Shown here piece after piece: positions 1,591-63,918 of a stretch of 64,000 bases of DNA. Positions within the stretch are counted from its first letter, which is position 1; each line of letters opens with the position of its first letter. Below the pieces are notes generated by a model. The model did no database searches. It saw only the letters and a program-made list of their open reading frames with translations, and was not told the DNA's origin. The translations under genes and the position numbers were made by a program. The stretch is from Polytrichum commune (Eukaryota > Streptophyta > Polytrichopsida > Polytrichales > Polytrichaceae): positions 30,752,001-30,816,000 of the forward strand of contig OX485803.1 of assembly GCA_950295325.1 (NCBI GenBank). The letters run 5' to 3'.

Positions 1591-3726
1591 ATGACTAAAG
1601 CATCAAGTCATGATAAAGCTTGTTTGTCATTGATCAAATTTATATGTATGGGGGTGCCCAAAGATAAGAACCACAAGGTTTTCTTCTATGGTAGAAAACC
1701 GGAAAACGGTGAAAATAAGTCGATTTGTCTAGAAAGAGTGGCTTCAAATTTGTGCAATAATTTTTCAAAATGGAGTAGAAGAAATGATGAGGAGTGCAAG
1801 TTGTTTTGTAACTTTACTTCTTGCAAATAATTAATTACATTTTCCGAAAGAGGCAAGTAAGGTCAAACCCCCTACTTGTACAATAGAGGCTCTCTCATTC
1901 GAGCATCAAAGTATCCTACTCCACACACAAAATGCACACAAATGGTTAACTTAATGGCACCCAAAAGTGATCCCAACTGGTGTGAAACATGATTGATATG
2001 GCCAATCACTACATTTGGCCTCCCACTACATTCTTTTTGGGCTACCACTTTTACAATTAGCCATTTTGGATTTGCACAAGAATCATTCTACTTCTAGTCT
2101 AGTGCACCAATAGTGGTCATTCAACGTTTTCCGTTTTTCTATCCTATACAATGGACTTGAAAGGATCTTATTTTTTTGTAAAAAAAATAATTTGTGAAAC
2201 ATAGAAGGTGCGTGGCCACATGGCTAGTTTTTTTCCGTCACGTAGAGAGAAGATTTTTCAGTAGGGAATTGAATTGTCAACCACTCCATTTGGCATTGGG
2301 TACCTCTCCGCTATCATCCAATAGTTTAAAGTCATCTCAGACCATACTTGAAATGTTTTTAAGAATGCACGGATATAGTTTAATCCGTTAAAGGGCCCAT
2401 ACATATTTATGTAGGTATCCAATGATCCATAAAAACCTCATGTCACTGAGGCAATGTGAATGGAGGGTGTGTGGTCGTGGGCAGACCACATCCAAGCCAT
2501 ACATTCACAAGTCCCCATCCTATGGTCTACGAAATTGCTCAAGTAGCCGAAAAAAAATTCCAACATATGAAATTTTGGCAGATGAAAAGTCAATGATTGC
2601 AAGATGAAGGGCTTGATTGTTCATCCCATTGTGTGAAAGCATTTGTGTAAGATTTTGAAGGTTCCCTACATGTTCCCTTAGTTCCCAATGGAGTTCCCCT
2701 TAGTGACGCGGATAAGAACCCACAACAAGTAAGGTAATAAGATCTTACTTGGTCTAAAATATTGTATTATATATTTAGAACAACTTATTATAGAGAAGAC
2801 ATGAAAATAAGTATCTAAATGACCTAAAATTTTCAAAGGTCAAAATTTGAGTGTAAGTCAACTCAAGGGTGGATCTACATAAAGACATGTGTGCTCTATG
2901 TTCAAAACACATGTGTATTGTTTTTCGTACTCAACATAAATTAATGAATGGGAGACATTTCATGGCATGAAATAAGGGAATAGAACACAATGGAATACCT
3001 TCAAAAGCGAACTCTATTGAGGTGTGTAGGGCAATATTATGACATAAATGGATTTACTAACAAAACTGTATAATGTGAACTATACATTGTAGGGATGACG
3101 TAAAATACAAATTGAACTTGAAGACTTAAAGTTTATGACATGGCACCATGACATTTGGAACAAATATTAGGCTTACATAATATGATAATTACACTAAAGA
3201 TTGTATTTAGTGTCACTTACTATTCAAAATTACGTGATGTTATAACTATCTATTGTATATCTCATGTTTTTGTTAACAAAGATCAAATTGGTTGTTTGGG
3301 CATTATAAAACAATAACATTCTTCACATGATAAAGAAAACTATATTGATTGTAAAAAGATAAAGCAATATGTACTACCAAATACTAAGTGACACTAAATA
3401 TCATATCTAGTGGATCATGTATATTTGTCTGACAAACAAGCATGGGGACACATTATATGAAGGGCATATATCAAAGGTGAACAACATAGAGTATATGGTG
3501 TTGTATTTGGCATGAAGAGAACTCTCCATGCCCGACATAATAGACCTACAACTTATAAGTTGATATATGCTAAGCTCTTTAGGCAAACCCTTGAAGTAAT
3601 ATATCACCTATAGAGAAATCACAACCGTGTGTATTTCACGACACCATTTATGCTATCTAGTGTCACTTGGTGAATAGTGTCACTTACCCTAATATGAAGC
3701 TTATGTAAGGGTACACTAGTGGTCAA
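1591..3726. other. intergenic DNA around SINE copy 1
   Basis: No coding signal. TGACACTAAATATCATATCT at 3390 and CACCATTTATGCTATCTAGT at 3641 are solo ends of the CACCATTTATGG MITE family. Confidence 0.4.
2163..2345 (-). mobile_element. SINE, tRNA-like, minus strand (copy 1)
   Basis: It matches the two better copies at 8761 and 40898. ACTTGAAA occurs on both sides (2155-2162, 2346-2353). The T/A-rich run at 2168-2190 is the tail in minus orientation. The element's GGTTCAATTCC box is slightly altered (AATTGAATTG on the plus strand). Confidence 0.7.
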
Positions 3727-23194: not shown

Positions 23195-24796
23195 CAGTGT
23201 TCAAGATTGAAGCCCTCATATGAGTTTCATTTTGAAGGGCTCTAAAATTTGAGCCCTTCGGTTGAAGGGCTAGTTCAAATTCAAGACGTCAATTCAGTAA
23301 TATAGAAATAAAATATAAAAAACTCATATTAAACTTATGCATGATTTATATGGTGCATGCTTCCAATACAATGTGAAGAATTAAGAATCAACCATCTAAC
23401 TCCACCTCTTCTAGTGATAGTGCCCTACGCTTGTTGGTTCTTGTGCCAATTTTCCAAGATTCAAAAATACTATCCCAATCCATGAATTCAACTCCTAACC
23501 CATTTAGACTAACCCTCATTAAAGCATCTAGTGTGTCAAGGTTGAGTGTAGTTCTCCTTTCACTCTTAACCCAATTTTGCTTTGAAAAACCACGCTCACA
23601 AACAACAGTGCTAGTTGGGATCACAAGTATGGCTTGCCATAGCGACATCATAGTTGGCCAATTAATCATGAACTCCCGGTCATTGCCACAAAAAACCCAA
23701 GCTTCTTGCATACTTCGGCGTTCACAAACGGAACATAACATCTCCACGAATTCTAGCAATTCCGCATTGCATTGATTAACAAGGTCATCGCTCCAACGGA
23801 AATGTGTCACCAACCGGTTCAACCATTGTTCCGTTAATGTCCCTCTGTCCAATTCATCTACGGGATAGTGCTTCGGGCTAAAAAGCCGGGCCGCATTGAA
23901 AATGGACAAGTCAGGAAATCGATCATTGAGTGAATCGATGATTTTCTGCACATGCTGCCTCCCCAACATGATGCATGCCTCCAATGAGCCTCCTACGTCA
24001 CACTCGGGCATGGAATCATAATGCAAGATATGCATTTTTTCACACCCAAAACTATCAACATACAATATTTGCCCATTGGGTACCACCTCGCGGAGAAACT
24101 TTCCTAGGTGTTTGGTTGTCAGGCCAAAACTTACACCCAGATAGTGTCTACGAAACAAGCTTATTGTTACATCAATCGTAGAAGCTATGCTAGTGATATC
24201 TACAAGATCAAACTGAAACTTGCGATTGACCTTATTCAACTCTGATAATATATCAGCTAGCATGTGAATGAAAAATTGGAACTGAAGAGAAGTTAGATCC
24301 TTGTACCATGTGGGTTCTTCAACCTCCCAAATTTCTAAAATTACAGGCATACAAAATACCAATCTCTCCATGACCAAGCCACAGGATAACCATCTCACCG
24401 AATGGATCTGTAAAGTTGCACGGGATTTCAAATCAGCACTGATTTCACATTGATTGAATCACATCACACTACAACACTGACTCAATGCTTACCAAAGAAA
24501 GGGTTGGATTCCAATCTTTTGCAAGACCTAAAAAGTTGAATTCCAAGTCAGATCGATGTTGAATGAATCATTTGCTAGGTGTTGAGGTTGTCACTGTAGT
24601 GACCTCCTCGTTGCTGTAACGACCTCCTCGTCACTGTAGCGCTACAGTGTTGACGGGTGTAAAAAATTTGAAGACGTCAAGTGAAGTTTTCATTTTGAGT
24701 TTGGGGTTGCATTTTGAAGGGTTGTTTTGAGAGAGGTATATTTTGAAGGGCCAAATCGCGTTTGAAGGGCATTGAAGACTTCAATCTTGAACACTG
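23195..24796 (-). mobile_element. hAT transposon, 1.6 kb, with perfect 8-bp target duplication GATACCAC
   Basis: The left end CAGTGTTCAAGATTGAAG at 23195 is mirrored by CTTCAATCTTGAACACTG ending at 24796. GATACCAC occurs directly on both sides (23187-23194 and 24797-24804). Subterminal GAAGGGC motifs repeat at both ends, as is common in hAT elements. It sits in the C/A-rich LINE-like stretch, so it arrived later. The intact open frame and TSD suggest a fairly recent insertion. Confidence 0.92.
23388..24449 (-). pseudogene. hAT transposase, C-terminal part (about 350 aa), internally truncated
   Basis: One open frame on the minus strand reads from SADLKSRATLQIHSVRWLSC to SLEEVELDG. The RWLS motif and the C-terminal stretch WQAILVIPTSTVVCERGFSK..VKSERRTTLNLDTLDALMRVSL match the hAT dimerization (hATC) region of the ZNF862/KIAA1586-like hAT group. 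The N-terminal BED zinc finger and the first catalytic region are absent: a TGA stops the frame just upstream, and only about 350 bp separate it from the TIR. The readable frame begins with a non-ATG codon, so I treat it as a remnant. hAT transposases cut and paste DNA with 8-bp target duplications, which this element shows. Confidence 0.85.
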
Positions 24797-37731: not shown

Positions 37732-38111
37732 AGGTAGACGTGCTTAATTTGGTTACTTATCTCGATCGGACACCTACTTTTGAGTGGAATGTGATTCAGT
37801 GTGGCTCCAAGAACGGACAACAAAAAGACGTGTGTAGTAAAAAGACATTGGATTTGCATGTTCAAAATAGGGTATTCACTCGAGGTGCAATAGTCAGCAT
37901 ATTTGGGGAGGGCCTGATACGACCAATCCAAAATCTTTACTTTGTTGATGAATAAGACATTCATATGAGCTCCATTAGTTGTGAGGAAAGTGACTCAAGT
38001 CTTCATTTGGATTTGCTAACCATCTCGTACCAATTGCGTGATTCATATTACAGGAGAATTGGGCCAGTTAGAAAAAGAAAAAGAAAGTAACCATCTTAGA
38101 CTCATCTACCT
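37732..38111. mobile_element. Stowaway-like MITE (AGGTAGATGGG family)
   Basis: It starts AGGTAGACGTGCTTAATTTG after TA and ends in ..CTTAGACTCATCTACCT before CA. It has the family interior GACACCTACTTTTGAGTGG and GGCTCCAAGAACGGAC. No transposase. Confidence 0.7.
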
Positions 38112-46720: not shown

Positions 46721-47899
46721 CATCATCATCAGTCGGCCGAACAAAGAAGAGGGGATAGAAGAGAGGAGAGCAGAGGAGAGTGAGAGAGACGCACAGCGAC
46801 AGAAAGGCCGAGTCTTGTGAGGCGTAGGTGTGTGTATTTGGGGGGGGGGGGGGTGGGGGGTTTGATTGAGAGCCAGGGTTGGGTTGCATTGATGATCAGA
46901 GAGGGAGAGGAGGGAGGATAGGGGGAGGGACGTTGACCGTGCTAAAAGTGGGAGTTTTGTGGGTGCAAGGTGCCACCTTTGGCCCCGGGGAGGACGGGAA
47001 GGTGGAGGTTTTGAAATGGCAGGAGGAGGAGTAGCAAGGTAGCTTGGGCGGGGCGGGCGGGTTAGTTGATGCTCTCATCTATCAAGGACCTTGGTGTTTC
47101 GGTGGTTTAGTCGGCAACTCGTTTCTCTGTCAGGGTGCGCGCGTGTGTAGAGGCAGAGACAGTGGCGGAAGGTGCACGTTCGATAAGGTTCGACAGAGAG
47201 AGTGTGGAGGAGGAGGAGGAGTAGAAGCAGTGTTAGTGTTGTTGTCGTTGTCGTTGTTGTTGTTGTTTCCTGTTTGGGATAGGCTTGGAGGGGGCGGTGT
47301 GGAGGCGAGGTGGGCAATTTGCAGCTGTGGAGCTTCGTTGGAGCTTGAATTGAGAAACTTGGGGCTTTCTTGAGGGCTGTCAGGAAGCAAGAGAGCTTGC
47401 AAAGGCGCGACAACAAGGAGCGACGGAGCATTCGGGTGGAGCAATTGCCTTTCTTCTTCTTCTTCTTGTCACTGGAGCGTGGGGGGTTGGTTGCTTCATT
47501 CTGAAGACCTCAAGAGGCAGCTCAGGAGCTGAGTTGGGAGATATTGTGAGTGGCTTGGCTTCCTGTGTGTGTGTGTATCTGGGGGGGCTTACGCATGGTA
47601 CAGCAGAGAGATTGAGCTTGCTTGGTTCGTTCAGTGTGATGAGCTGATGATGGTGGTGGTGGGGCTAAGTGCACTTCTCTGTCGCTGTTTCTTCTGCCCT
47701 CTCTGACCACTTTCTCTCCCCATTCCCCTACACACAAGTACAAAAGGAGGAGGCACTTGGTGTGGATCTCCCTTTCTCGCATGTGTGGCGCATATTCCCA
47801 GAGTTCCCAAGTTCCCAACTTATTCTTGGGTCATTGTCCACACCCCATCCTTCCCCTGTCTTATTGTGCCAGACATCGTCAGGCCATCATCGTCAATAC

Positions 47900-48330
47900 G
47901 AAATGGTCGCACAAACAAGCTCCAGATTCTTCTAAGCCCTACCTCCCTCACACTTTTCTCTTTCCCTATTGTGCTTCAAAGATACCGATGTGCACACAGG
48001 TGTAGTCCATAAACAAGCTCCCCAACATCGTAAGCACTTCCTTCACTCTTCTCGTTTGTAGCATAGATAACTGATGTGCACACAGGTGTTGTCCATAAGC
48101 AAGCTCCACAACATTCTGAGCCCTTCCCTCACTCTTCTCTTTTGCAGCAAAGATAACTGATGTGCACACAGGTGTAGTCCATAAACAAGCTCCACAACAT
48201 TCTAAGCCCTTACCTCACTCTGCTGTTGTGGTAAAGACACTGTTTTGCACACAGGTGTAGTGCACAAAGACAGGTCCATAGGATTCTAAGCCCTTCCTCA
48301 CCCTTCTTTTCTGCAGTGAAGATAAGCGAC
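47900..48330 (+). repeat. tandem ~85-bp repeat carrying splice-acceptor-like ends, in the 5' leader
   Basis: About five imperfect copies with a period of 84-86 bp. Each has a GATGTGCACACAGGTGT-like core (47988, 48073, 48159 and a diverged one near 48245), then ACAAGCTCC, CTAAGCCCTT and a pyrimidine-rich stretch. In three copies that stretch ends in AG: GTTTGTAG at 48061, TTTTGCAG at 48147, TTTCTGCAG at 48316. The first and fourth copies lost the AG. The array looks like a duplicated 3' splice site that could offer alternative acceptors for a leader intron. Confidence 0.75.
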
Positions 48331-48778
48331 GTGTAGGAGGAGTGCTTCCCTTCACTTGCGTCAAGATTGACGACCTATGAACCATCTGGCAGGCTCTTCC
48401 ACATCTGAGGGAGGAGGAACCCCAAGATTGAGTGTTGCCTCCCATGTGGACAGCATCGGTGCATGTCACAAAGGCAAGATCATAGGACTTGGCTCTCCTT
48501 GTATCCCAACCCAGGAGGAGCGACTAGGGATTCTTGCAGTCTTGCACTTCAGTCTAGAGGAATTGGTATCAATTCAATGGGATATATCGTCCAGTCCCCA
48601 ACTCATGGGAGTGCCATGTAGGTAGCGCCTCTTCTTCTTCTCCTTCGTCTGTGTGGAGCTTCTTCTTGGAGGTTCTTTGGGGAGCTTCTTCCGTGTGTTT
48701 TAACATTGGGGATCCTACCCTAGCTCTAGTGTAGAGGCTAGGCTAGGCTTGGTCTGGTCTGTTCAGACATCTTTGGCG

Positions 48779-48829
48779 ATGGTTCTGATCGAGGGAGGAG
48801 CAGAGCTCAACCTACTGCGGCATTGTTGA
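48779..48829 (+). promoter_or_regulatory. upstream ORF of 16 codons just before the ARF-like start
   Basis: ATG at 48779 reads MVLIEGGAELNLLRHC and stops at TGA 48827-48829, 38 bases before the chosen main ATG. It is in a different frame from the main ORF. Upstream ORFs are known to lower translation of plant ARF genes such as ETTIN and MONOPTEROS, so a translational role is reasonable but inferred. Confidence 0.5.
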
Positions 48830-48867
48830 CATCAGAAGCAGTGGAAGGAGGGACTGCTGTGACTTCG

Positions 48868-51800
48868 ATGGACAATGGCCTGCCTAATCCTGCCGCGGTA
48901 AGAATCTCTCGTATACAACTTGCCGGTGTGAAGAGGTCTGGAACTGAGAAATGTGACAAGCGTACCATGCCATCCTTATGCCACCAACGGAAGTATCTCA
49001 ATTATTACATGCCTGGAAGCAAAGTATAGATCAAGAATGCAATAACAGGAAGTTCCAGAGTATGGTGAATCAAGTTGCTTGTCTACAGCTTGGCATCCTT
49101 CAGTGAGCTACGTTTTGTGGAGCTGAAGGCTGTTTCTAATCAAGGAGCATGTTGCTACTGTGTGTTGATTCTCTTCTTGCAGGAGAAAAGGAAGAGGGAA
49201 ACATTTCCTATCGAAGAGGATGTTAAGGATAATGTGAAATTGGCACGGCAATGGTTCGGGTCGCAGAGGGCTGATGATGCCCTAAAGGATGGCTATCAAA
49301 ATGGTGTCTTCCACGGGATTTCTGTAGACAGTTTGTTCCGGATGCAACAGCAGCAGCAACAACAACAGCAGCTACAACAACAACAACATCAACATCAACA
49401 TCAACAACAGCAACAGCAACAGCAGCAGAAGAGTGAGATAATAACAACTCCTACTCTCAACATGCAACAAAGGGTCATGGCTGCGGCGACCTTGCAGGTA
49501 TGAATCAGCACTGCGACAATGCTCTATGTTGATAATGAAACACAGCCACTTAATGGCACATGGCTTGCTATGCCTTTGACAGGTGCCAAGATACAAGTAA
49601 GAGGTTACGAGGCGGAGCTTAGTGAAAGAAAGGCAATAGTGATGATGATCAGTATGAATGATCATCACAATAGCATGGGAATAGGAAGGCAATGTGTTGG
49701 CACTTGGCTTCTAAGACTTCTTCAGGTAGTACTCGTGTCGGGCACTTTTGGCTTATGGAATTTGAGCACATACAATTTGTTGTAGTGCTTGCCACCGATT
49801 TGAAAGCGCTTGGAGGATTAGTATGAGGTCTGATTGCAAATGCTTATCCTGGTCTTTTAGGATAGGAAGGCAAGAACTTAGCAGATGATAACACTTCATT
49901 TTTACCTTGTGATTAAACTTCAGGATTTGCGAGGCATCAACGAGTCCTCGAAGGCATTCTTCCAACCTCAGTTACAACAACACATGAAATATGGGACGCC
50001 GCCGCCTCCTCCTCAACAACAGCCACAACAGCAGCAACTTCCATCTCAAAGTTTGAAACATGCATCAATGCCAGACTCTTCTACTGGTTCACTTCGAGAG
50101 CTCTCACCTTGTCATCCTCCTCAGCAACCCCTGCCTCTAAGAACACCCCCACTTTACTCCGAGGCCGATATACACAACGGTTCTCCAACTTCCTCTTCCT
50201 CTGGCCCTTATGCGAGTTTGCAGAATATGGCAGGCTCCTCCACCTCACATTCAGGGAGTGCATCCATTCAACCTCCGGATGCAGAGAATGACAGCTCCTA
50301 CAGTCTTGTCCATGGAACTCAGAATAGTCTTCTTTCGCAGCCAGTAGGGCAAAGTGTTCTTTTGCAAGCGCAGCAGCAGCCGGCCCAGTACTCGACAAAT
50401 GGGATGCTTGCTCAACAACAAAGAGGACACTCTCCTCATCAGCAGATGGGCATGGCACAACCTGGTGGCCAACAAGGCTCCCAAAATGGTGGGATGCATC
50501 CTCACCAAGGAACTGCCACTGGAGCAAGTAGTAGTCTCCAGAACGACAACAGTCAGGGGTTGGATGCTGACATGGCACGCCAGCAAGGTGCAAAGCTTGG
50601 GCAACAACAACAGCAGCAGCAGCAGCAACAAACAAACCATGCTGTGCAGAGTAGACTGCAAAGTGGTATGCAAAGTGGTATGCAAAGTGGTTTGCAAAAC
50701 GTTCATCACCATCAGCAGCAGCAAAATGGGTATCGGTTGCCGAATGGGCTTTGCCAAAGTGGAAGTATACATGCACAGAACAGCCATGAAATGATGTCTC
50801 ATGTCTTCCAAAATGGCAACATCCATCACCAAAACAGCCATGTGATGCAGAATGGGATGCAAAACATCTCAAGCAGATCCCAGGGTGGAAGTGTGCTTTC
50901 ACAAGGTAATCGCTTCTTCGAGATACTAGTTGTCGTGTCTTTTTTGGTTGTGGTGATCCTGTAACGATTATAAGTTGCATTTGTTTAGGTTCTAATGCAA
51001 ATGGGAATAATTTCTTAGGTAATCCGGATGACCCAAGAATGATGCCATTGGGGATGTCAATTGAATCGTGGTAGATGGAAGAAGACTTTGTGTCTGAAAG
51101 TAGGCACCGATGAAGTGTCTGTTGACTAATGAGAGCTTACTGGCACTTGACTATGCTCCTTGGCATTGATGCATGTACTCAAGGACCTTGATTCTTGAAT
51201 TTTTTTTCTTTTCGTGAAGCTAGAAGAGAAAAAGTGCGTCCTTACACATGCTTAAGAATGCTATGCCAAATTGCAGGTGCCTGATTCAGTAAAGAAAATT
51301 GGTAGTAGAGGTGACGGTGTGACTCAGTTACCTGTTGTTGCTACACCTCACTGAGGCAGCTTGTATGTGTGTATATAACCTGTATTGTTAACAAAGGTGA
51401 AGTGCAAATTGCTTGTCAGGTGACTCTCCAAAGATGGGTGCTGTACCGCTTATCCAAGGCAGCCATGCATTGCCAAACAGGCTGCATCATCAACAAATTG
51501 TGCATTCTTCTCAAAGTGGGCTACCGAATGGAGGGCAGAATGGGACAATGCACCCACAAGGTGGTCATCGGATGCAGGATGGTATCGTTCATCAACATCA
51601 AGTTGTACATCCGCCACAGAACGGGATGGGAATGGGGCCACAACAAACTGCTAATAGTGCTTGTAGTGGAGGAGGTTTCTCTCATCAACAATTAGGTCAA
51701 GGTGGGTCAATGGGCATTCCACAGCAACAAATGAGGCTTCCATCCCCGCTCCGTGAGCTTCAGGTTAGTTCCCCAAGCTCAAAAGATCAGTATTTGATGC

Positions 51801-54800
51801 AGCACAAAAATTCCTTTTCTACTGACTCAATACAGTTATCTTTTATGTCAACAGAACTTTTTCATTGGGAGTTTGTCCTCTATGATTTTCCATTGGTTGT
51901 TTTGCATACAATATCAATAATTTCTCTCCACTTGTGGTGTATGCTCGGAGGTAGTGTGTGAATTTGAACGAAGAGCAAGCTGTTTTGATTCATTGAGGGC
52001 CAAGCTCATTTTATCACCTCTTGGCATGCCAAAATGAGTTTGACCCCTCAATGAACTGACATAGAATGTTCTTCGTTCAAAACTCCAACACTACTTCCCA
52101 GCATGCACCGGTGTTGCATGCAAAACAACCAACTCCCTACCAAGAGTCATGTTGAGTTAGAGGATTAACTCTAATATCCCATCATGATTTACCGTCTATC
52201 TCTTTATGCAAGAAAACTGGACTTCTTGTGAATGAAGCGAAAAGCGATGTCTACGCAGGGTATGCCACAGGGCTCATCAGGAGCTTGGTATCCATCAATG
52301 CGCACGCAGCCCTTGGTTGCGGAGACACAATCCTCGAATGCAATCAATTCGAGGTTTCAGGGACGAGATATGACAAACAACATGGGGAATCCCATGTTGT
52401 CGCCTTGCGTCAACGAGTTCAATTACCAAAGGGGCGTCGCACCAATTTCGCCTCAACTGAACCAAGTTCAAGGTGGAGGGGGATATAGGGACGCACCTCC
52501 CGACCAAGATTTGCACTCTCAATATGAGGGGCAAAGTCCTGTACCTTCTTCCATGGGTAACTTGAAAGGGTATGGCTCACCCTCCACCCACAGCAACAGA
52601 ATGGGTAAGGTCCTTCCAGTACAGACAGATATCCATGGCCGGCGGCTCTTGCAAGCCAACTTCTGCACACCTTCAAGCTCCGGAGGAGACTCGAATCTGA
52701 GCGTTCCTCCTATGGTGGCGAATGGAGGCGTCATGTGCCCTCCAAAGATCACCCGGAGCTACACCAAGGTACTTTGCATCTTACAGTCCTCAGTTGTTAC
52801 AATTTTGGGTGTTTTTTGAAGGGTTATTTGCACTACAAAGGTGGTTGTGGTTGTGGTCGTGGTCGTGGTTAACAACCACAAACAATCTTTTGGTTGTTTT
52901 TTTTAATAAGTACTTGTCTTGTGGATCGGTCTTCTAAATCGTAATTCATCATTGGTTTAGGTCTGGGCTGAGAAAATTAAAGGGATTATTGGCCTTGTTG
53001 GCTTGGGATTGTAATGTTAAAAGTGGTCACCTCCTCAACTTTCTCCCCGGACCTTGGCCTTGAAGTTCTCTAGTGATGCCACATGAGCATGAACAACCAC
53101 CCAAAGGGTGGCTAACCACGTGGAGTAGGGAGGTTGATGGAGTAAGAGGTGGTTGTGGTTGTGGTTAGCATTTATTATGCCTTTTCCATGGAAATAGAAC
53201 CAACGAAAGTAAACCACTATCACCACCACAACCACCCCTAGTGTATGTCCCTCGACATGGGATTTGTGTATGGTGCTCGTATGGATGTCTCAATTTGGCC
53301 ACGCTGGGTGATATCAAGTTTACACTCAATTCAAGTAACTTGTTGTGGTTGGGCCAAGTGATTTTGCCAACGTGTCTCCTGTCATTGATTGGATAGGAGG
53401 AGACACAATTATCACCTATATAATTGATGGCCTTGCCGTAACTTGACCTGCCATCATCTGTTGTAGACACCCAATATACTATCTTGCTGCTACTACAACC
53501 TGTGGCAGGGCTCCTTGGATCCATTACCTAGTTCATAGAGTTGCTCAGCGACATTGGGTTAGGGTTTAGTTGATTTCAGGTGAGGCTTCCAGAATATTCA
53601 GAGGTAGCTATGAGGATCCTTTACAAAGTGAAGAATTTTATGGCTTTGAGTTGTGTATAAAGTATCTTGTCTGTGTCGCGTGAAAAATGCCTACTTGCTG
53701 CCATTGTTTTGGACAGTTCTGATATCCAATCCAATATGCACTTAAAATATGTATTTCCTTGAGTTGTGAAAAGGCTGGAATGCAAGATGGGCTTATTTGA
53801 TGAACTTGGGGAGTTGTTATCTGCTGGATGACAAGATTTGATGGTGAATATCTGATTATCTCTTAATACGGGATATCTGATCTCGGGATGTTTTTGGGGC
53901 TATCAGGTGTACAAGCTGGGTTCAATAACAAGGGCAGTGGACGTGAATCGATTCAGCAACTACGCAGAGTTGAGATGTGGGTTGGCTTCCATGTTTAAAT
54001 TGGAAGGTCAGTTGGATCAGAAGCTTGGGTGGCAGCTGGTGTTCACTGACAATGAAGATGACCTCCTTCTTGTTGGAGACGATCCATGGGAGTAAGTAAT
54101 CTTTATTTTCCTGTTTCTTTGAAATATGACTATTCTCACGGCTTTTGGTTTTGCTTGTTCTATTGATTGTTGATTAGCATTGAGGGGACTTGAAAAAAAT
54201 GTGGGCGGCTCCTTCATTCCATTTATCTCATTGTATCATGCAAATATAAAAATAACAACATTCAAGGAAAGTACCTTTCTTAACATGGAGCGCCATGGAA
54301 AAGAAGGTGATGGTTGGAATAATGGTTTGGGTAGGGCTCTGTGAAAACACCTTGGAAGATTCACTGAGATCTTGGGAGTTGTGTGCATAGAAATCTCCTC
54401 ATGCATTTATCCGCTCAGTTAATTATGACAAGGTGGCTGTTCAGAGAGTGGTAGTGTAATGAACAAAAAGTTCCTCTGGGATGACATAATTTGGTATTGT
54501 GAGGCATACTTTTGATGGAGACGTAAATTAGACAAGATTGGTGGGCGTCATTTTGATTCAACTGCACAGCAAACTGACATTATAAGATAGTACAACTGGA
54601 AAACCTGCACGGAGTCTGTTGCCTTCAGCAGAATACCGTCTGCCAGGTGGTGGAAGTGAATTTGAGATAAGATTGACATCAGTTTACGAAATTCTATTGA
54701 TTAATCATTGAACTGAAAATGTGGTTGCTTGGGAATGTCAAGACGCATGTCAGAGCAAGGGACAAACTTGCCGATTCCAGGAAATCAATTTTGCAATGGA

Positions 54801-55919
54801 ATTGCCACGAAGCTTAGGCCGGTGTTCCTTCAATAGATGTTTCCTTGCCTATATTAGTTTTCATCCCACCATGCAGTTGGAGTGGTTGTATATATTAGTG
54901 GTTGTTATCTGTAAAAGTGGTAGGGAGTTTCACCCCACTTTTGACATTTTATAGATTCTCGAGATGTGTTCCAATTGGTACCAGAACCCCCAATTTTGGT
55001 GAGATGAAGTGGAAGTGTTTGACTTTGACCTAGAGATGGTTTTATAAGAATGAACTCGCCGTCAAACTTTTGAGAGCACCATTTTAGGGGCCTTCAAAAG
55101 TTTGACATGTGACTCATTTCATTTTTATACAAGTTGTCTTTTGGCCAAAGTTTTACGCCTCTCCTTCATTTTACCAAACCTGGATGTTTTGGTGACACTT
55201 ATTGCTCCTTAAACAGTATAAATGGTCAAAAGTGGGGTGAAACTCCCCACCAAAACATGGTTTTTGGAGAAAACTTTAAGGATAACTATATTATCGCTGG
55301 GCTTTTCTTTATTTTCCAGGAATACTTCCCATCAGTGAGGCACTGATGTCGAGTTTAAGGTAGATGGGTCTTACATGGTCACTTTTTCCAATTAGCCCAC
55401 TTCTCCTAGGCTATGAAACTCGTGATTTGCATGAGATGGTTTATTAGCAAATCCAAATTGGGACTGTAGCCACTTTTCTCATATTTTTTGAGGCTGATAT
55501 GAATATCTCATTCATTGTCAAAGTGAAGATTCTCGTGCTCATTAAAAGGTCATATAGGTGCCCCCAATTTTGTTGACTATTGAACCCATAGTGGTTACCA
55601 TATTTTGATCCGTACTCCAGCCTCTTTTAAAGACATGTCTTGTTGGTTTCCATTCTTGGAGCCACACCTAACCACCTACCACTCAAATATAGGTGTTTGA
55701 TTAAGGCGAATAAGCAAATTAGGGACATGTACCTTGCTTGCTAATATATCTCCCTTCTAATATATTTTTCTTATGATATATTCTTGCAGGGAATTTGTCC
55801 GAAATGTGCGGGGCATTCGTATCCTAACGCCTGCTGAGGTGTACTTCTACACTCACGAGGATAAGTGTGGCTCGGCCTACAATTCCATTGGAGGTAACTG
55901 TGCTCCAAAACAACCCTAA
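48868..55919 (+). CDS. ARF-family protein with Gln-rich middle region and PB1 domain but no B3 DNA-binding domain (ncARF-like), 8 exons
   Basis: Exons by GT-AG sites with matching phase: 48868-48897, 49183-49497, 49924-50905, 50989-51018, 51420-51763, 52259-52768, 53907-54091, 55790-55919. They join to 841 codons plus TAA. Residues 12-15 are KRKR, a possible nuclear signal. Residues 34-64 ([13 protein letters not shown] to SLFRM) and 103-130 ([16 protein letters not shown]) resemble the activator (class A) ARF middle region. Residues 65-98 are a Gln/His run, and Gln/Asn/Gly/His-rich sequence extends to about 730. Residues 735-820 are a PB1 domain with the basic-face lysine (YTK, 737) and the acidic motif [18 protein letters not shown] (784-801). 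PB1 mediates ARF-ARF and ARF-Aux/IAA assembly in the nucleus. I found no B3, dimerization or ancillary domain in the 5 kb upstream, and the reading frame upstream of exon 1 closes at TAG 48739. The start ATG 48868 is the only ATG in that open stretch. Upstream exons outside my reading remain possible. Confidence 0.85.
50989..51018 (+). other. 30-nt cassette-like exon of the ARF-like gene
   Basis: The exon lies between acceptor TTGTTTAG and donor GTAATCC and adds ten residues (SNANGNNFL plus a Gly junction). It enters and leaves in phase 1, so including or skipping it keeps the frame. If its donor is not used, the frame continues to TAG at 51072-51074 and gives a protein lacking the PB1 domain. 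The donor GTAATC is weak, and so is the GTAATC of the preceding exon. Confidence 0.55.
51890..52135. mobile_element. fold-back MITE in intron 5 of the ARF-like gene
   Basis: The two halves are long imperfect inverted repeats: TTGGTTGTTTTGCATACAA and GGTGTATGCTCGGAGGTAG on the left pair with the reverse complement of CTACTTCCCAGCATGCACC and TTGCATGCAAAACAACCAA on the right. The inner arms (TTCATTGAGGG.. CTCATTTT) also pair around a short loop at about 52012-52030. There is no coding capacity. Boundaries are approximate and no target duplication was identified. Confidence 0.7.
52837..53245. repeat. GGTGGTTGTGGTT-rich inverted repeat in intron 6
   Basis: GGTGGTTGTGGTTGTGG near 52839 recurs in direct orientation near 53146 and inverted near 53228-53245 (ACCACCACAACCACCCC). 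This may be a degraded TIR element or a simple-sequence expansion in the intron. I saw no target duplication. Confidence 0.4.
53907..55919 (+). CDS. PB1-domain-coding last two exons of the ARF-like gene (53907-54091 and 55790-55919)
   Basis: These exons are the most diagnostic part of the gene. The first starts in phase 0 after a TATCAG acceptor and reads [20 protein letters not shown], then [30 protein letters not shown]. It ends in GTAAGT after two bases of a Glu codon, and the second exon (after TTCTTGCAG) completes it and continues [19 protein letters not shown]. This is the canonical ARF/IAA PB1 fold order, with the intron between DDPW and EEF. The tail after the domain is short, about 21 residues ([22 protein letters not shown]), where many activator ARFs have a longer one. 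The last intron is 1.7 kb and carries two MITEs. Confidence 0.95.
54919..55251. mobile_element. MITE in the last intron of the ARF-like gene (TIR GGTRGGGAGTTTCACC)
   Basis: The left end GGTAGGGAGTTTCACCCCAC at 54919 is matched by the inverted right end GTGGGGTGAAACTCCCCACC ending at 55251, giving about 27 bp of nearly perfect TIR. An inner palindrome (GTCAAACTTTTGAGAGCACC and its inverted partner) lies near 55060-55107. There is no ORF. Target duplication was not resolved. Confidence 0.75.
55358..55734. mobile_element. Stowaway-like MITE (AGGTAGATGGGTCTT family) in the last ARF intron
   Basis: It starts AGGTAGATGGGTCTTA after TA and ends in ..GACATGTACCT before TG, where TA is expected. About 377 bp. 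It is one of at least nine copies of the most abundant family in the window and lies only 55 bp upstream of the last exon. Confidence 0.7.
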
Positions 55920-63049: not shown

Positions 63050-63918
63050 GTTGATGGATGCGAGGATCCCCCCACAAGTTGTAGTAGACGCTCAACCTAC
63101 TAAACCGCAATAGCAACAAGGTAAATATTGGGTGCCTATTACAACCAATGGCAGGGCAACACGTGTCCATTACATGATGTAGTGGCCAAGCCATGGCAAG
63201 ATCACCAATTACATGTGATGAGGTGCATCCTTAAGTATAATAAGGATTGGATAGTTAAGAACATCACTATGTGTGAAGAGTGTATGCATTGGATATGTGA
63301 AGGACATCACCAAAAGCCGAAACGTCCTTGACAATCATGACCATGTGAGCTCATTAGAGGGTGATTAGAGGCCATCACGTTAAATACATGCTATGTTCCC
63401 TCACTCTCCAAATGTTCAAAGAAAACAAAAAGGAACATCAATGTTTAACACAGATGTGCGATGTCCATTCACCAACTCCCACCCATGTCATCATATGTTC
63501 ACCACATTTGTTAATGAGCTGAATCTAACAATGTTGAGTTGTTCACTCACAATATTATATGTGTAAAAACTTAGTTTCTTATAACATACCATACGATAGA
63601 GTCCATCCCCAAAAGGGGAAAGTAATGTGCGGGTGCAAAGGCTCTTCATTCGTGCTTGCTCCCAAGGAAGCCGGCGTTTATATCCATTCTTATAACATAA
63701 AATAACATACACTACGGGGATCATATAGTCATCCCACTGGTCAATGGCACATGATCACATAGTTGACAACAATATGTAAATGAAGTTCAGTTGCTTTGTA
63801 ACATTTCACTAGCAATATGTAACGAGTGTCGGCTATGTCACAAGTGGAACAACCAAGTAATTCTTGTAGTGAGATAGGTTAAAAGATCTTCCCGTCTGAA
63901 CATGGAAGGCCTTCTGTC
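63050..63918. other. intergenic DNA before the window edge
   Basis: An inverted relative of the 62582-62725 insertion lies near 63420-63500. No gene recognised. Confidence 0.35.

Follow-up and report, generated by a model that had tools for sequence, protein, structure and literature searches.

Clade-D ARFs, or ncARFs, were described in 2018. According to passages of PMC5873896, these proteins without a DNA-binding domain (DBD) diverged from class A and have been kept in liverworts, mosses and lycophytes, being missing in hornworts. An earlier note on the DNA studied here had named DBD-less ncARFs from liverworts and mosses, which stands for both groups, although their range is wider and takes in the lycophytes as well. 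The same passages report a weaker auxin response in Marchantia ncarf mutants and propose two models of ncARF action, namely protection from Aux/IAA or co-activation. In Physcomitrium, passages of PMC10299833 (2023) describe the PpARFd proteins as activators and report co-activation with class-A ARFs via the PB1 domain. As described there, the PB1 domain of ARFd1 binds ARFa8 and IAA1a and hardly ARFb1; both PB1 faces are needed for full activity, and the middle region (MR) is also needed, PB1 alone giving no rescue. Residue Y643 of PpARFd1 lies just before PB1 and T653 on the DIII positive face, ten residues apart (PMC10299833, in part).

The window analysed here (the whole stretch of 64,000 nucleotides of Polytrichum commune DNA) contains a predicted gene that is very probably a clade-D ARF, of class-A descent and without the B3/dimerisation/ancillary DNA-binding region. 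The gene looks like a fresh example of a kind on record from liverworts, mosses and lycophytes, leaving the family picture unchanged, and it documents, in a genome assembled to chromosome scale, a predicted clade-D ARF whose exon anatomy is clean. It resembles PpARFd1 and ARFd2, as these are described in passages of PMC10299833, in having no DBD, an MR and a PB1 domain; in this comparison, made by description and residue numbers, it differs from Physcomitrium patens in that two clade-D copies are described there and one was found here. By description, in passages of PMC5873896 and PMC10299833, MpncARF is likewise single, DBD-less, provided with PB1 and derived from class A. On the other hand, Marchantia polymorpha is described in part of this literature with one ARF each in classes A, B and C, versus two loci each here. 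With canonical class-A ARFs the gene shares blocks of the MR start (in this genome's copies), the PB1 domain and two PB1 intron positions, but it differs from them in the lack of a DBD (B3 absent) and of the FLFGV motif. The likeness to Aux/IAA proteins lies in PB1; in contrast to the Aux/IAA locus at C4:16.11, which has VGWPPV, the window protein is without GWPP, and it is also without LxLxL.

The predicted gene (48868-55919, plus strand) encodes 841 residues in eight exons (842 codons including the stop), arranged from N to C as a ten-residue leader, a Q-rich MR and a complete PB1 domain (Table 1). All its introns are GT-AG and the frame is unbroken and without an inner stop, in agreement with the earlier note, in which the eight exons joined without a frame error. 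Since the 30-nt exon 4 can be skipped without a frameshift, its inclusion stays predicted. The KRKR cluster noted near the N-terminus is present at residues 12-15. With respect to the start, the frame before exon 1 had been said to close at 48739 with a sole ATG at 48868; it is open back to 48742, and 48868 is the first ATG there. Nine donors between 46001 and 49180, all of the GTRAG type, were tried; those at 48898 and 46222 alone join an ATG-bearing frame to exon 2, the frame from the latter being a low-complexity stretch of 22 residues.

Table 1. Exons of the predicted gene (window positions) and canonical ARF loci of the genome (contig and Mb).
Feature	Position	Strand	Description and basis
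Putative untranslated 5' leader exon	48317..48867	+	inferred from acceptor ending at 48316 and GTRAG site at 47546
Exon 1, coding part	48868..48897	+	ten-residue leader; first in-frame ATG; GT donor at 48898
Exon 2	49183..49497	+	KRKR cluster, class-A-like MR start (FPIEED...), poly-Q tract; from splice sites, frame and class-A MR similarity
Exon 3	49924..50905	+	MR; AAATLQ|DLRG block across its start and YSEADIH inside, both common to class A
Exon 4	50989..51018	+	30 nt, in phase; frame kept whether included or skipped
Exon 5	51420..51763	+	MR
Exon 6	52259..52768	+	last part of the MR, running into PB1 as far as RSYTK; both class-A loci have their donor behind the same K codon
Exon 7	53907..54091	+	first part of PB1 with both charged faces, up to GDDPW; canonical ARF PB1-exon HMM, E 6.7e-26; AtARF5/AtARF7 PB1 match
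Exon 8	55790..55919	+	end of PB1, short tail, stop; canonical ARF PB1-exon HMM, E 7.4e-7
Class A loci	C5:17.05 and C7:1.65 Mb		MR with FLFGV
Class B loci	C2:34.67 and C6:28.83		KLFGFDL in C2:34.67
Class C loci	C5:22.43 and C6:27.98		by elimination

The putative 5' leader carries seven ATGs upstream of 48868, the longest uORF having 82 codons from 48377. These upstream ATGs make initiation at 48868 uncertain; the uORFs may control translation of the gene, or initiation may differ from the predicted one. A genome search with the 588-base stretch 48310-48897 found no second copy among the best candidates scored, and gain of the leader by exon capture was discarded on this ground.

The absence of a DBD claimed in the earlier note was borne out by a Pfam scan of the protein, by genome scans for B3 and ARF_AD and by HMMs of DBD blocks. 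At E <= 1, the window protein matched a single Pfam family, AUX_IAA (PB1), with an E value of 4.1e-7. The genome (408 Mb, 64 contigs) was scanned with the ARF_AD (PF06507) and B3 (PF02362) profiles at E <= 0.001, stretches reading N being able to conceal a match in these scans. ARF_AD gave 10 matches from 15 candidates, at six loci, and none on C1, the contig of the window. B3 gave 114 matches from 138 candidates, those nearest to the window on C1 being at 5.58 and 50.84 Mb; at the same threshold neither profile matched anywhere in the window or in the 20 Mb to either side of it on C1. B3 matches were also present at all six ARF_AD loci, which indicates that the scan is able to see split ARF DBDs.

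The DBD-block HMMs were built from exons common to the genome's own ARFs and searched against the window in six frames. Ten DBD blocks were seen, of which eight were modelled, the two omitted corresponding to 2213-2386 and 3250-3327 of A_C5_17; three rows of block b6 and one of PB1b extend beyond the exon end into intron letters. Models built without class A recovered both class-A loci in 8/8 blocks (16/16 tests, E 7.7e-9 or better), a control that is flattered because class A had guided the choice of block borders. Class-A models recovered class B in 16/16 tests and class C in 12/16, with misses in blocks b7 and b10. In the window, the search upstream in all frames for B3 and ancillary domains that the earlier note had suggested was run on six frames, and no DBD block matched at E < 0.02, the all-class models reaching at best E 0.022 and the class-A models E 0.16. 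Among the four best matches listed for each model, the window pieces had at most 25 residues; the best of those listed were at 63449-63511 (E 0.022), past the 3' end of the gene, and at 37823-37900 on the minus strand (E 0.038). The PB1 models of the same run matched exons 7 and 8 (Table 1). As to the upstream assembly gap that the earlier note had named as speaking against its reading, the window (C1:30752001-30816000) contains no N and lies in the interior of C1, which extends to at least 74.8 Mb; the missing DBD is therefore not an effect of a window edge or a gap. Misassembly or hidden DBD exons were rejected on the genome scans together with the block HMMs.

To the C-terminal side of the leader, the start of the MR (residues 11-235 of 841) was compared with the MR of the canonical copies, the class-A rows being open frames from the first MR exon in which some intron letters are possible. 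Against class-A C5:17.05 the score was 127 (Z 12.7, 0/500 shuffles as high), and 77 with Q runs masked (Z 7.9, again 0/500). Against class-A C7:1.65 it was 76 (Z 4.3, 0/500), falling with Q masked to a non-significant 41 (Z 1.3, 61/500 shuffles as high). The B and C copies gave Z values of -0.8 to 0.9 raw and of -0.9 to 1.9 masked, the top masked score being that of one class-C copy (Z 1.9, 27/500), above that of the second class-A copy (Z 1.3). The claim of a class-A-like MR held, though with strong similarity to one class-A copy only (raw Z 12.7 vs 4.3), so that most of the evidence for a class-A kinship of the MR comes from C5:17.05. The blocks common to the window and class-A MR are MAAATLQDLRG/MAAAALRDIRN and YSEADIH; in the first of them the window has an intron at the AAATLQ|DLRG site, whereas the class-A copies read through it. 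The FLFGV motif of both class-A copies was not found in the window protein. Its MR holds 127 Q in 722 residues (0.176), versus fractions of 0.089 and 0.117 in the class-A MR part measured.

Splice models of the class-A loci place the end of the last DBD exon at ..KR[SP]RG...G, at a phase-1 intron, and the start of the MR exon immediately ahead of EED in C7 and five residues further upstream in C5. In the window, exon 2 is entered in phase 0, and homology to the class-A MR sets in at IEED, some ten residues past the start of that exon. Since this homology begins beside the class-A DBD-end intron, the whole block of DBD exons is missing, the protein begins with a different leader, and the cut lies at or near the intron of the DBD/MR border. 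A descent of the KRKR cluster from the class-A KR[SP]R patch is doubtful, since the patch lies across the intron from the cluster and the phase of the intron differs.

The earlier note had also described a complete PB1 domain keeping both charged faces, and this agrees with our data. In a PDB search with the PB1 domain, in which six distinct sequences were found in all, the best matches were ARF5 (E 1.1e-27 and 7.5e-27) and then ARF7 (6.9e-25), both of which we take to be class A; the IAA chains in this search were far weaker (3.8e-7 and worse). Residues K737 and D785, E787 and D789 are present, and these presumably form the two charged faces, which fits the A substitutions in 4nj6. The PB1 donors, one after the K codon and one within the E codon that follows DDPW, match those of both class-A loci to the codon, and this speaks against a retrocopy. 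The window protein has Y735 and T745; the residue at the T745 site is S in one class-A copy, G in the other and G also in AtARF5/7. By residue numbers, Y735 and T745 are ten apart as are Y643 and T653 in PpARFd1, assuming that Y643 is the Y of an RSYTK-like motif in that partly available description. For the window PB1, identities of 52 and 54% were measured with the class-A copies, of 53 and 54% with class B, and of 57 and 56% with AtARF5/7. The two class-A copies are 66% identical to each other in PB1, more than either is to the window, so that the split seems to have preceded the duplication of class A.

PB1 trees of 9 rows and 94-95 columns were made in two versions, both without bryophyte ncARF rows. 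In the first, the two C rows overran the PB1 exon, an E was absent from the A_C5_17 and B_C2_34 rows and A_C7_1 had one surplus residue; the second was made from corrected, shorter rows. The AtARF7 row was taken from 4nj6, in which three face positions are occupied by A, presumably through engineering. The window fell next to, but outside, the group that moss A forms with AtARF5/7, with weak support (79/85 in the first tree, 62/82 in the second), and the node joining A and the window was also weak (71/60 and 75/74). This placement agrees with a clade-D ARF but is no proof of one. Constraining the window with class B was not rejected (p-AU 0.27 and 0.24), nor was constraining it with either class-A copy (p-AU 0.12 and 0.10 in the first tree, 0.25 and 0.10 in the second).

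These results bear on whether the gene might instead be a lineage-specific truncation of the genome's own class-A ARF, independent of the bryophyte and lycophyte ncARF clade and similar to it in architecture by convergence. Such an origin would account for the class-A kinship of MR and PB1, and grouping with either class-A copy is compatible with the trees (p-AU 0.10-0.25), but it is very unlikely given that the PB1 identities to the class-A copies lie well under that between the copies themselves and that the Y/T pair has the spacing seen in PpARFd1. A remnant of a canonical ARF, non-functional or misassembled and with its DBD exons elsewhere, would be in line with the low-complexity MR, and the gene is known from genomic DNA alone; this explanation is extremely improbable against a window free of N, an 842-codon frame in eight exons with GT-AG introns and no inner stop, intact PB1 face residues, and a contig C1 with no B3 match between 5.58 and 50.84 Mb and no ARF_AD match.

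As a clade-D ARF, the protein would enter the nucleus, perhaps via the KRKR cluster. The positive and negative PB1 faces would, to judge from the family, dock it onto DNA-bound class-A ARFs, and the docked protein could add a second Q-rich activation region at auxin-responsive promoters. At low auxin, Aux/IAA would join the same PB1 chains, to be removed as auxin rises. The earlier note had left bridging and titration side by side; by analogy, the published Physcomitrium work favours co-activation. The protein might alternatively act mainly as a decoy that titrates Aux/IAA off class-A ARFs, its MR being dispensable, a reading that concerns the mechanism and not the family. Its PB1 has both faces, as a decoy would need, protection from Aux/IAA is among the two models proposed in passages of PMC5873896, and ARFd1 binds IAA1a according to passages of PMC10299833. 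We nevertheless regard a decoy as unlikely, if Physcomitrium is a guide, for in the same passages PB1 alone failed to rescue the auxin response and the MR was needed. A further, quite doubtful idea, drawn from one sequence and two published residue numbers, is that a T on the positive (DIII) PB1 face (T745; T653 in PpARFd1) together with the loss of FLFGV forms a clade-D signature that could bias pairing to class-A over class-B ARFs. If so, clade D would be a specialised adaptor and not a class-A ARF merely minus its DBD.

The ARF loci found in the genome comprise two of class A, two of class B, two of class C and one of class D, the six canonical loci forming three pairs by mutual similarity; the class names of these six are our assumption, from characteristic motifs and elimination. 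Above the cut-off at least one Aux/IAA locus was present, at C4:16.11 Mb, with VGWPPVKSF. Searches for a second ncARF, each among the best candidates scored, gave, with exon-3 DNA, no more than two short side matches, 36 and 30 bases long, the query itself only with the 54-residue start of exon 2, and with PB1, apart from both exons in the window, four canonical ARFs and a weak hit (E 0.235). These locus numbers would fit a duplication of the genome followed by the loss of a D copy. Given that a single D copy was found, with A, B and C each present twice, a one-knockout test of clade-D function would be possible in this lineage.

Repeats were also observed in and around the gene. Intron 5 contains a MITE-like element (51868-52175, inverted repeat arms 51963-51999 / 52045-52081) of an abundant family, with at least 83 matches from 40 scored of 3127 first-look candidates, and a 76% copy lies upstream in the class-A locus C7:1.65. 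Intron 7 holds, within 54918-55736, inverted-repeat DNA (arms 54918-54953 / 55217-55252) and stretches that also occur on the 3' side of the class-C locus C5:22.43. Elsewhere in the window, a 356-residue open frame on the minus strand (23391-24458) has a Pfam match (E 2.9e-6) to the dimerisation domain of hAT transposases.
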